Of a DNA stretch of 64,000 nt, positions 3,230-6,829 are shown in pieces (positions within the stretch are counted from its first letter, which is position 1; each line of letters opens with the position of its first letter). The notes below the pieces were generated by a model. That model had not been told where the DNA came from. It worked only from the letters and a program-made list of their open reading frames with translations, and did not search any database. Position numbers and translations under genes: made by a program. This DNA is from an uncultured Litoreibacter sp. (GTDB lineage: Bacteria > Pseudomonadota > Alphaproteobacteria > Rhodobacterales > Rhodobacteraceae). The stretch spans positions 496,001-560,000 of the forward strand of contig CANMWQ010000003.1 in NCBI GenBank assembly GCA_947501685.1, given 5' to 3'.

Positions 3230-3793
3230 ATGACCGCCACGCCGCTGCCCCGTTCCGTCTGTGTCTATTGCGGCTCGCGCATGGGCACCGATCCGGCCTA
3301 CCGGGAGGCCGCCCACGCGGCAGGCAGGCTGATCGCGCAAAACGGCTGGCGGCTGGTCTATGGCGCGGGCGATGTGGGGCTGATGGGCGAGGTCGCCCGC
3401 GCCGCGCAAGCAGGCGGCGCGGAGGTCTTCGGCGTCATCCCCGTTCATCTCTTTGACCGCGAGGTCGGCAAGCAGGATCTCACCAGTTTCGTCATCACCG
3501 AAACCATGCATGAGCGCAAAAAGGTGATGTATATGAATTCCGACGCCATCGTGGTGCTGCCCGGCGGCGCGGGCTCGCTGGACGAGTTTTTCGAGGTGCT
3601 CACATGGCGTCAGCTTGGCCTGCATGACAAGCCGATCGTGCTGTTGAACACCAATGGCTACTGGGATCCGCTGCTGGCGCTGAATGCCCATGTGGTCGAT
3701 CACGGCTTTGCCGACGCCTCCATGCTGGACTTCATAACACCCTGCGCCACCCCTGAGGAGATGGCCACCACGCTGCAACAGCGCTGGGCCTGA
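3230..3793 (+). CDS. LOG-family (TIGR00730) nucleoside monophosphate phosphoribohydrolase
   Basis: 187 residues, the usual length for the family. The Rossmann fold opens with VCVYCGSRMG and carries the signature PGGAGSLDEFFEVL near residues 110-123, which forms the substrate site and holds the conserved acid. LOG proteins cleave cytokinin-type or ordinary nucleoside 5'-monophosphates to the base and ribose 5-phosphate; many bacterial members act mainly in nucleotide turnover. It is cytoplasmic and stands alone, divergent from the LysM gene. Confidence 0.9.
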   Translation: MTATPLPRSVCVYCGSRMGTDPAYREAAHAAGRLIAQNGWRLVYGAGDVGLMGEVARAAQAGGAEVFGVIPVHLFDREVGKQDLTSFVITETMHERKKVMYMNSDAIVVLPGGAGSLDEFFEVLTWRQLGLHDKPIVLLNTNGYWDPLLALNAHVVDHGFADASMLDFITPCATPEEMATTLQQRWA

Positions 3794-3922
3794 TCCACCG
3801 ACGCGCCATGGCAAAACGCCCTTCAGCGCCGGATTAACCCAAATGTGATGCGCAGCCTGGGCGCTTTCTTGTTACGCTCCGCAGAAGAATCACAAAAAAC
3901 ATCCCCAATACGGAGCGCGCCT

Positions 3923-4378
3923 ATGTCCCTGAAAACCTCCATCGCCGCCGTGGCGCTGGCCCTGACGGCGGCTCCCGCCCTCGCGGCCGAGGGCGAACGC
4001 GTCCAGATCACCGGCGAAATCATCGACACATGGTGCTACTTCTCCGGCGTCATGGGCGGCCCTGAGGCCGTCGTGGGCTCCGCGCATCACACCTGCGCGC
4101 TGTGGTGTTCGGCGGGCGGCATTCCCGTGGGCCTTTTGGGCGATGACGGGGAGGTCTACATGGTCCTCAAGATCAACGGCGACGACCAATCCGCCTCCGG
4201 CGACACGCAGCTGACCCTTGCCAGCCACGAGATCGTGGCCGACGGCATGCTCTATAAACGCGATGGGCTGAACTATCTGGTGGTGGAGGCCGTCGTGGAA
4301 GATCGCGGCATCACCAACCTGAACCACGAAGATTTCGGCGTGGTCCCCGGCTTCGCCATTCCAAAACCAAAGAAGTGA
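3923..4378 (+). CDS. Periplasmic CxxxC protein A of the SCO/rhodanese operon
   Basis: Uncharacterised. The start at 3923 (MSLKTSIAAVALAL) gives a clean Sec signal peptide cut near AALAAEG; the longer ORF start at 3845 would bury it. The mature part is about 130 residues. Visible residues are C38 in GEIIDTWC, a HHTCALWC box (H55, H56, C58, C62) and then GGIPVGLL. The Cys-x3-Cys box with flanking His suggests binding of copper or another metal, or thiol chemistry. The downstream protein B has the same layout (ExxDxxC ... CxxxC ... GLL ... DGLL ... YLV), so the two look like diverged paralogues. First gene of a five-gene operon. The function is inference. Confidence 0.75.
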   Translation: MSLKTSIAAVALALTAAPALAAEGERVQITGEIIDTWCYFSGVMGGPEAVVGSAHHTCALWCSAGGIPVGLLGDDGEVYMVLKINGDDQSASGDTQLTLASHEIVADGMLYKRDGLNYLVVEAVVEDRGITNLNHEDFGVVPGFAIPKPKK

Positions 4379-4389
4379 GGGCCCGGATC

Positions 4390-4962
4390 ATGAAAAAGCT
4401 CATCGCAGCACTCGCCATTCTCGCCACGCCATTGGCCACATCCGTCGCGGCGCAGGATTTCTCTGAAGGCTCCACCGCCAAGTCGTGGAACCTCTATGCC
4501 GAGGTCCCCGCCACCTTTGAGGCCGAAGTCGTCGATATCCTGTGCACCGTCGCAGGCGATTGCGCCGCGCAATGCGCTGAGGGCCGCCAGCTGGGCCTCT
4601 TGCGCTCCGCCGACAATGTGCTGGTCTTCCCCAACAAGAACTCCCAAAGCTCTTTCAACGGGGCGGCTTACGATTTGCACCCCTATTGCGGCAAAATGGT
4701 CGACGTGGACGGGCTGCTCATTGAGGATGAAGACATCCAGGGTGCCACCAACATCTACCTCGTCCAAAAAATCAAGGAAGCCGGGGCCGCTGACTGGGCC
4801 AAGGCCAATAAATGGACCAAGGTCTGGGCCGCCAAACACCCTGAGGCCAAAGGCAAAGGCCCGTGGTTCCGCCGCGACCCGCGTGTCAACGCCATCATCG
4901 CCGATACCGGCCATCTGGGTCAGGGCCTCTCCCCCGAAGAAGCCTATGAGATCACACGGTAG
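4390..4962 (+). CDS. Periplasmic CxxxC protein B of the SCO/rhodanese operon
   Basis: Uncharacterised, 190 residues. The ATG at 4390 (MKKLIAALAILATPLATSVAAQ) gives a signal peptide and is preferred to the upstream ATG at 4375, which overlaps the previous gene. Cysteines are C52 (EVVDILC), C58 and C62 (CAAQC, then GRQLGLL) and C100 (LHPYC). The pattern parallels protein A but lacks the HH pair and has an extra C-terminal basic region (about 160-175). It probably works with protein A and the following SCO protein in periplasmic metal or thiol handling; this rests on context and Cys spacing only. Confidence 0.75.
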   Translation: MKKLIAALAILATPLATSVAAQDFSEGSTAKSWNLYAEVPATFEAEVVDILCTVAGDCAAQCAEGRQLGLLRSADNVLVFPNKNSQSSFNGAAYDLHPYCGKMVDVDGLLIEDEDIQGATNIYLVQKIKEAGAADWAKANKWTKVWAAKHPEAKGKGPWFRRDPRVNAIIADTGHLGQGLSPEEAYEITR

Positions 4963-4972
4963 GCCCATTCAT

Positions 4973-5530
4973 ATGATCCGCGCGACACTTATAAGCCTCG
5001 CCATGGCGACCCCCGCCATGGCCGAAACCCCGCTGCCCTTTGATCTGGGCGGCGACTACACCCTGACCAATCAGCATGGCGACGCCTACACCCAGGCCGA
5101 CCCGCAGGGCCGCCCGCAGCTGCTCTTCTTTGGCTATGTGAACTGTCAGGAAATCTGCTCTGCCGTGTTTCCGATGATGGCCGAGGTGGTGACCGAAATC
5201 GAAGCCCAGGGCATGGAAATCACCCCGGTGATGATCACTGTTGACCCGGTGCGCGACACGGTGGAGACGATGGGCCCAAAGCTGGCCGACTATCATCCCG
5301 ATTTCATTGGCCTCACCGGCACGGAGGCCGAGCTGCAAGTGGCCTATGACGCCTATTCCGTCGAGAAGGAAGAGGTCTTCGTGGACCCCGAATATGGCCC
5401 CGTCTATGCCCATGGCAGCTTCATCTATCTGCTGGATGCCGAAGGCACATTCCTGACCCTCGTGCCCCCTATCGTGAGCCCAGCGCAAGCCGCGGGCATC
5501 GTCGCAAAATACACGCAGGAGCTTGGTTAA
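4973..5530 (+). CDS. SCO family protein
   Basis: 185 residues with a short signal peptide (MIRATLISLAMATPAMAE) and a thioredoxin fold. The SCO motif is C58-x3-C62 (NCQEIC) with the distal His in YAHGSF, the three ligands used by SCO1/PrrC proteins to bind copper. SCO proteins deliver copper to, or reduce thiols in, the CuA site of cytochrome c oxidase subunit II. The start at 4973 lies just behind the stop of protein B. The ORF track shows a longer frame from 4496, which is read-through in another frame of protein B. Confidence 0.92.
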   Translation: MIRATLISLAMATPAMAETPLPFDLGGDYTLTNQHGDAYTQADPQGRPQLLFFGYVNCQEICSAVFPMMAEVVTEIEAQGMEITPVMITVDPVRDTVETMGPKLADYHPDFIGLTGTEAELQVAYDAYSVEKEEVFVDPEYGPVYAHGSFIYLLDAEGTFLTLVPPIVSPAQAAGIVAKYTQELG

Positions 5531-5531
5531 G

Positions 5532-6005
5532 ATGGCCTCACCACTCACCCGCCGCGCGGTTCTGACAGGCGGCGTTGCCGCCCTTGGCACCGGCACGTTT
5601 TTCGCCGCTGGCGGGCAAAACCTGTTCTATTCGCTCATCACAGAGGCCAGCGCCGCTGAAAACCTCGACCCGCCCACCGCGCATCAACTGGCAGCGACGG
5701 GCAAGATCACCCTTGTGGACATCCGCCGCCCCGATGAATGGGCCAAAACAGGCTCGGGCGAGCACGCTCATCGCCTCGATCTGCGCCGCGACGACTTCAT
5801 CGCAGAGCTGGACAAGTTGTTGGACGGCGACCGCTCCGCCCCCCTTGCGCTGATCTGCGCGCGCGGCGTGCGGTCTGCGCGCGAGAATAACAAGCTGATC
5901 GCCGCAGGCTTCACCAATGTCATCGACGTGCCCGAAGGCATGCTTGGCAACAAACGCGGCCCCGGCTGGATCAAACGCGGCCTGCCGCTGAACCTCGCCA
6001 AATGA
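5532..6005 (+). CDS. Exported rhodanese-like protein with Tat-type signal
   Basis: 157 residues from ATG 5532; the ORF track begins at a TTG nine bases upstream. A twin-arginine type leader (LTRRAVLTGG) is followed by a single rhodanese domain with VDIRRPDEW and the active-site loop CARGVRS (C109). Rhodaneses carry sulfur as a persulfide on this Cys. Export by Tat places it in the periplasm next to the SCO and CxxxC proteins. It starts just after the SCO stop and overlaps the next gene by ATGA. Confidence 0.88.
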   Translation: MASPLTRRAVLTGGVAALGTGTFFAAGGQNLFYSLITEASAAENLDPPTAHQLAATGKITLVDIRRPDEWAKTGSGEHAHRLDLRRDDFIAELDKLLDGDRSAPLALICARGVRSARENNKLIAAGFTNVIDVPEGMLGNKRGPGWIKRGLPLNLAK

Positions 6006-6829
6006 TCCGCATCACCGCGCTGGCTCTTACCGCACTGACCGCCACCCAAGCCCATGCGGGCTGCGCCGATGGCAGCGACACGCCCTGCACCGTGCCGCTG
6101 GGCGAGTATCACATCATGCTCCCCGAGGGCGTCGACACCCCGCCCGCGCTGCTGTTCCTCCATGGCGCAGGCGGCAATGGCAAACAGGCGATGCGGATGA
6201 AAACCGCGTTGGAGCGCGGTTATGCCGTGATCGGCCCCAACGGGCTCAAACGCCCCAATTCCCGCTTCGGCCCCGGCTGGTCCTTCCACCCGGCCCGGCC
6301 CCAGCAACGCGACGAAATTGCCTTCATGCGCGAAATCCTCGACGACGCCGCACAGACCCACGGCATCGATCGCGACCGCGTGCTCTTGGCGGGCTTCTCC
6401 ATCGGCGGCTCCATGGTCAGCTACATGGCCTGCGACGCGCCAGATCTGGCCGCCGCCTACGCGCCGGTCGCAGGCAGCTTCTGGCGTCCGCATCCCGCCA
6501 TCGACGCCTGCCAAGGCCCGGTCAAACTGCTCCACACCCATGGCTGGAAAGACAAAACCGTCCCCCTCGAAGGCCGCCCCGTCAGCGTCGCCGATATCGA
6601 GCAAGGAGACGTCTGGTACGGCATGCAAATCTGGCGTCGCGTCAACGGCTGCCTGGGCCGCCGCGCAGACAGTTTCGACACATCCGGAGCCTTCTGGATC
6701 CGGTCATGGGACACATGCGAAAACGGCGCGCTGGACTTCATCCTCCACCCCGGAGCCCACGGCATCCCCAAAGGCTGGTCCAACACCGCGCTCGACTGGT
6801 TCGAAGGGCTGGACCTGTCTGCTGAGTGA
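6002..6829 (+). CDS. Secreted PHB depolymerase-like alpha/beta-hydrolase esterase (LpqC type)
   Basis: 275 residues with a signal peptide ending near QAHA-G. Alpha/beta-hydrolase marks are LLFLHGAGGNG (oxyanion region), GFSIGGSM (nucleophile Ser in G-x-S-x-G), D in HTHGWKDKTVP and H in HPGAHGIPKGW. Members of this group cleave polyester or small ester substrates; LpqC-like members are often called feruloyl or polyhydroxybutyrate esterases. It is the last gene of the CxxxC/SCO/rhodanese operon, joined by an ATGA overlap, though its chemistry has no obvious tie to the others. Confidence 0.85.
   Translation: MIRITALALTALTATQAHAGCADGSDTPCTVPLGEYHIMLPEGVDTPPALLFLHGAGGNGKQAMRMKTALERGYAVIGPNGLKRPNSRFGPGWSFHPARPQQRDEIAFMREILDDAAQTHGIDRDRVLLAGFSIGGSMVSYMACDAPDLAAAYAPVAGSFWRPHPAIDACQGPVKLLHTHGWKDKTVPLEGRPVSVADIEQGDVWYGMQIWRRVNGCLGRRADSFDTSGAFWIRSWDTCENGALDFILHPGAHGIPKGWSNTALDWFEGLDLSAE

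Follow-up and report, generated by a model that had tools for sequence, protein, structure and literature searches.

The stretch of DNA analysed here (the window, 64,000 nucleotides from an uncultured Litoreibacter sp.) encodes two small secreted proteins without a recognised name, A and B, immediately before a SCO protein, and the question it raises is whether the three act together and what A and B would then hold or pass on. The genes belong to a run of five on the plus strand that overlap or are separated by gaps of no more than 12 bases: protein A (3923..4378, 151 aa), protein B (4390..4962, 190 aa), the SCO protein (4973..5530), a rhodanese (5532..6005) and a secreted alpha/beta-hydrolase (6002..6829). 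B starts with the ATG at 4390; a GTG at 4375 is an alternative start, with which B would overlap the end of A. A TIGR00730/LOG-type cytokinin-riboside phosphoribohydrolase-like gene (3230-3793) lies directly upstream of A and is kept there only in Litoreibacter-like loci. By inspection, the leaders of A, B and SCO are Sec-type signal peptides, and the mature proteins would be periplasmic.

The first-pass annotation described A, B and SCO as three consecutive CxxxC proteins, and the translations agree: A has H55-H56-T57-C58-x3-C62, and both B and SCO have C58-x3-C62. The motif by itself was rejected as evidence, being too common (13 of the 62 predicted genes in the window contain it), so the weight of the finding lies in the conservation of individual residues across some 110 loci and in the fixed order of the genes. 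The longer pattern proposed for A and B (ExxDxxC, CxxxC, GLL, DGLL and YLV, in that order) is present in both proteins except that A has DGML in place of DGLL. In A its elements are E32-x2-D35-x2-C38, the histidine-preceded CxxxC, GLL (70-72), DGML (107-110) and YLV; in B they are E46-x2-D49-x2-C52, C58-x3-C62, GLL (69-71), DGLL (107-110) and YLV. Neither protein matches a Pfam family above the cut-off (B has no match at all), and in NCBIfam the matches of A are weak and far below the cut-offs, with none for B. Single-sequence and profile searches of solved structures gave no credible match to A or B, plasmid records searched with A gave none, and a full-text literature search returned no title or abstract pointing to either protein, which is weak evidence of absence. 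A and B are two new, unnamed paralogous protein families without a Pfam entry.

The paralogy, also claimed at first pass, is visible at the level of profiles; direct BLAST of A against B gives nothing useful. The two profiles align over 77 collinear columns (hhalign E = 2.7e-5, probability 74.5), and B proteins of two loci, L128 and L138, match the A profile at 6e-6 and 7e-5. The small beta fold that had been expected of both appears in their separate AlphaFold models (pLDDT 84.6 for A, 86.2 for B), which share one small beta-barrel plan with the order strand, short helix, strand, strand, short helix, strand, strand; the comparison is of this order across two separate models. In the A model HxxCxxxC lies on a predicted helix (residues 53-65; the codons of H55-H-T-C58-x3-C62 span 4085..4108, plus strand), and the B model has extra C-terminal helices. 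Foldseek lists OB-fold proteins for both, with CusF and SilF among the weak matches of A; no structural match of A or B is significant (no E under 0.001), and the ranking favours OB domains as a class, CusF not being singled out. The similarity of the profiles and the matching order of elements in the models together support A and B as distant paralogues with an OB-barrel plan in common, a case that is moderate, not overwhelming.

Residues that could bind a metal are almost perfectly conserved. In A, C38, M44, H55, C58 and C62 are invariant in every row with letters (about 110 loci; 109/109 rows with letters at the columns of H55, C58 and C62), and H56 is kept in all rows but one. In B, the three cysteines of C52-x5-C58-x3-C62 (4543..4575, plus strand) occur in 110/110 rows with letters and C100 in 110/111. 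Conserved cysteines thus number three in A and four in B, and the odd number in A means that at least one of them stands outside an internal disulfide. In one genome (G335) an in-frame TGA interrupts the A gene (L130:7442-7747 / L112) and B has Phe for C100, reflecting either decay or sequencing error.

A domain paralogous to A occurs in a different setting, as the C-terminal part of membrane proteins of ~250 aa encoded next to ferric-reductase/Rieske genes (e.g. L002:1078-1839). It was found although it lay outside the query (single-sequence match ~6e-4, profile 4e-6 to 1e-5), no named Pfam family matched it, and its motif is G-E-x2-D-x2-C ... H-x2-C-A-x2-C-x2-G-x-P; when it is aligned with A, the three cysteines and the first histidine are still invariant. 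The proteins that carry it are unnamed and, unlike A, are membrane anchored, have an extra preceding domain and stand in another operon without B or SCO. That operon consists of a ferric-reductase/Rieske membrane protein, the anchored ~250-aa protein with its Cys3-His end and, at most of the sites, a small membrane protein, and was seen at L002:2-2138 (G000:C1 near 202929), L021, L022, L023, L024, L115 and L117.

The third gene had been called a SCO protein and is a true SCO1/SenC (PF02630, E = 1.2e-38, 132.5 bits against a cut-off of 22.8), with Blr1131 as the closest solved structure. With SCO1/SenC proteins (e.g. Bradyrhizobium ScoI, Blr1131) it shares the Pfam family, CxxxC, the Asp and the distal His; C58, C62, D95 (the Asp of DPxRDT) and H147 are present in 107/107 of the SCOs linked to A and B. 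It differs from them in its A-B-linked lineage, in a seemingly cleavable leader (by inspection) where SCO1/SenC has a membrane anchor, and in the surround of its cysteines. A CPDxCP surround is typical of SCO1/SenC, not strictly defining. The window SCO has CQEICS instead, and its linked counterparts in the same family show CxxIC with S, T or A as the next residue; in divergent loci the surround is CPDICP in five of six and CTETCP in L140. The linked SCO at L140:291-1412 (minus strand) also has a His-rich insert, HGSHAGHDPHAGHNSHAGHGG, just before the ligand His. Many alphaproteobacteria hold several SCO proteins, and the genome of the window encodes one other, between regB and regA (regB-senC-regA). 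A tree of 47 SCOs, which includes 26 others sampled from the same genomes, has a branch (support 80/77, recovered in 82% of bootstraps) that separates the linked SCOs from the rest, and none of 500 label shuffles clustered as tightly. Tree and shuffles point to the linked SCO as a probable dedicated paralogue, a lineage apart from the SenC of regB-senC-regA, with moderate branch support.

The three genes keep together far beyond Litoreibacter. A search anchored on B gave 80 loci, in which A adjoins B in 80/80 and SCO in 79/80, the remaining locus being cut by a contig end. A search anchored on A, which does not presuppose B and covers samples of the family, class and phylum, found 31 other genomes in nine families, with B adjoining in 31/31 and SCO in 28/31; the samples are subsets of genomes, with simple gene calls for the loci retrieved. 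A-B-SCO is one conserved three-gene module. Constant co-occurrence of the three, on which the first-pass annotation had proposed a survey, falls just short: G230 and G344 (one family) and G066 (the window's family) carry A and B without an adjacent SCO, which makes A-B the tighter core. At the G066 locus (L008:1-1959) a hydrolase gene follows A and B after a gap of ~500 bases. Of 150 sampled genomes in the window's family 19 have A, its own genome included (about one in eight), and in the phylum sample A is confined to the window's class, the alphaproteobacteria. Genes beyond A-B-SCO differ from clade to clade. A shared copper or respiration theme was sought in these variable flanks and none emerged, nor does any conserved neighbour name a client across the loci examined; in a single genome, L132, genes for cytochrome oxidase subunits stand ~5 kb away from A-B. 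The annotation had held that different folds for A and B, or their wide occurrence away from SCO among unrelated neighbours, would speak against its reading, and we observed neither.

What the module does can be proposed from these features. A and B would be Sec-exported OB-barrels forming one periplasmic module with SCO, each with a soft-ligand site, in A of three Cys together with a Met and one or two His and in B of four Cys. They may keep Cu(I) bound to thiolates or hand it on, His and Met helping in A, and SCO may use its own CxxxC and His to trade copper or reducing equivalents with them. The end point of the copper would be a cuproprotein, by default guess a heme-copper oxidase subunit, or safe storage. 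We infer copper as the ligand from the tie to SCO and from the ligand set, and infer also the direction of transfer and the client. Our preferred reading is periplasmic Cu(I) handling by a dedicated SCO together with two OB-fold Cu(I)/thiol carriers, and we rate its chances as even. Besides linkage and conservation, the odd number of cysteines in A, the presence of CusF and SilF among its weak structural matches, the His-rich insert of the L140 SCO and the oxidase genes near A-B in L132 speak for it; the loci that lack an adjacent SCO, the presence of SCO and PCuAC in genomes devoid of A-B and the low significance of the structural matches speak against it. A narrower proposal is more doubtful, namely that A and B would be the first pair of OB-fold Cu(I) metallochaperones to rely on Cys, a two-carrier relay with a SCO lineage of its own in a copper pathway apart from PCuAC/SenC, and with a membrane-bound cousin domain in the ferric-reductase/Rieske setting.

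The main rival has the same three proteins exchanging electrons: SCO would be the thioredoxin-like reductant or oxidant of the cysteines of A and B in a thiol-disulfide relay that carries no copper, for example during oxidative stress or to maintain the reduced state of a periplasmic thiol site. SCO proteins have a thioredoxin-like fold, A and B are rich in cysteine, and the window's family has lost CPDxCP from its linked SCOs, which may change their redox or copper behaviour. The distal His and the Asp kept in every linked SCO nevertheless go beyond the expected need of a pure thiol exchanger, and A retains H55 and M44, which are typical metal ligands. A link to oxidative stress through the singlet-oxygen RpoE-ChrR sigma factor, whose promoter is given as TGATCC-N15-GCGTA in R. 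sphaeroides and TGATCC-N16-CGTA in P. syringae, was also looked for, and even a loose form of this promoter occurs in just 1 of 94 regions upstream of A. We consider the relay of electrons rather unlikely. Next in order comes a different cofactor in A and B, either structural Zn(II) or an iron-sulfur cluster for electron transfer with 3Cys-1His or 4Cys ligation. The Cys3-His set of A and the Cys4 set of B would suit it, as would the A-homologous domain in a membrane protein beside a ferric-reductase/Rieske protein; it is improbable, however, given that Sec-type rather than Tat leaders (by inspection) disfavour insertion of a cluster before export, that the spacing is not of the CDGSH type and that it would not account for the link to a dedicated SCO lineage.

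Two further alternatives bring in other enzymes, and we give both very little credence. The first-pass annotation placed a Tat-exported rhodanese after SCO and considered persulfide as a cargo, so that A and B would carry sulfane sulfur in a relay with the neighbouring enzyme. The gene is as described (PF00581, E = 9.7e-9, active loop CARGVRS, a twin-arginine leader by inspection) and sits directly 3' of SCO in Litoreibacter-like loci, but of the 80 loci found by way of B only 27 have a rhodanese, and it is missing from all seven divergent loci whose genes were read one by one, which places it outside the core. The hydrolase that follows, a member of the PHB-depolymerase-like group (PF00561, 1.3e-9; NF050058, 7.6e-23, below the cut-off of that model), has a clear homologue in 21/80 loci. 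In the best explanation rhodanese and hydrolase are lineage-specific operon passengers. In the other proposal A, B and SCO would help to mature the copper enzyme methanethiol oxidase (MtoX/SBP56), operons for which often contain a SCO of their own (PMC5739008). SBP56 is enriched with A in the family sample (14/19 against 38/131, p = 2.5e-4), and the genome of the window has SBP56 yet only two SCOs; its SBP56 gene lies at G000:C3:565274-566647, ~5 kb past the right end of the window, and the SCO other than the linked one is that of regB-regA. Outside the family the tie is gone (1/7 against ~17/232), so the enrichment probably follows phylogeny, and SBP56 is missing from 5/19 of the A-positive genomes. 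Methanethiol oxidase was rejected as the client, its enrichment extending over the family and not the class. Of the two cargoes suggested at first pass, copper is plausible and sulfur disfavoured, and the interpretation as a whole is partly supported.

The known systems closest to A and B share some of their features and lack others. CusF and SilF are OB-fold proteins that carry Cu(I) (PMC10656224). Like these Cu(I)/Ag(I) chaperones, A and B are small periplasmic OB-barrels by predicted models, with structural matches that are not significant; the ligands of CusF and SilF are Met, Met, His and Trp, whereas those of A and B are mainly Cys (in A also His and Met), there is no sequence match, and no CusCBA-type partner is found near A-B. 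PCuAC, like other periplasmic copper chaperones that cooperate with SCO, resembles A and B in idea only, as a small copper carrier acting with SCO, and neither A nor B matches the PCuAC family (PF04314) even at E values as high as 1. The gene for PCuAC lies at a separate site of the window's genome (G000:C1:431946), and 148/150 genomes of the family have one. A role for A-B-SCO as a replacement of PCuAC or SenC was rejected, both being present anyway. Genomes without A-B still carry SCO and PCuAC, so ordinary oxidase assembly can do without A-B-SCO; the module supplements the SCO/PCuAC set and is no substitute for it. A SCO lineage fixed to two unnamed secreted families provides a partner set for asking what an extra SCO does. 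Should copper be confirmed, Cys-based carriers would join a use of the OB-fold for which CusF and SilF are the only examples described to date, and two families absent from Pfam would gain a testable role.

Upstream of A there is a conserved element of the approximate form CAAAA-Y-GTGAT-Y, ~55-95 bases before the gene. Its GTGAT core is found in 60 of 94 non-redundant regions, where 12.9 would be expected (sd 3.1), and its positions cluster at a single distance; in the window it lies at 3845..3849 (plus strand) after an A-rich stretch; it is a possible part of a promoter or operator. TAGGCT is also enriched in these regions (17 against 1.1 expected) and is perhaps a -10 element.
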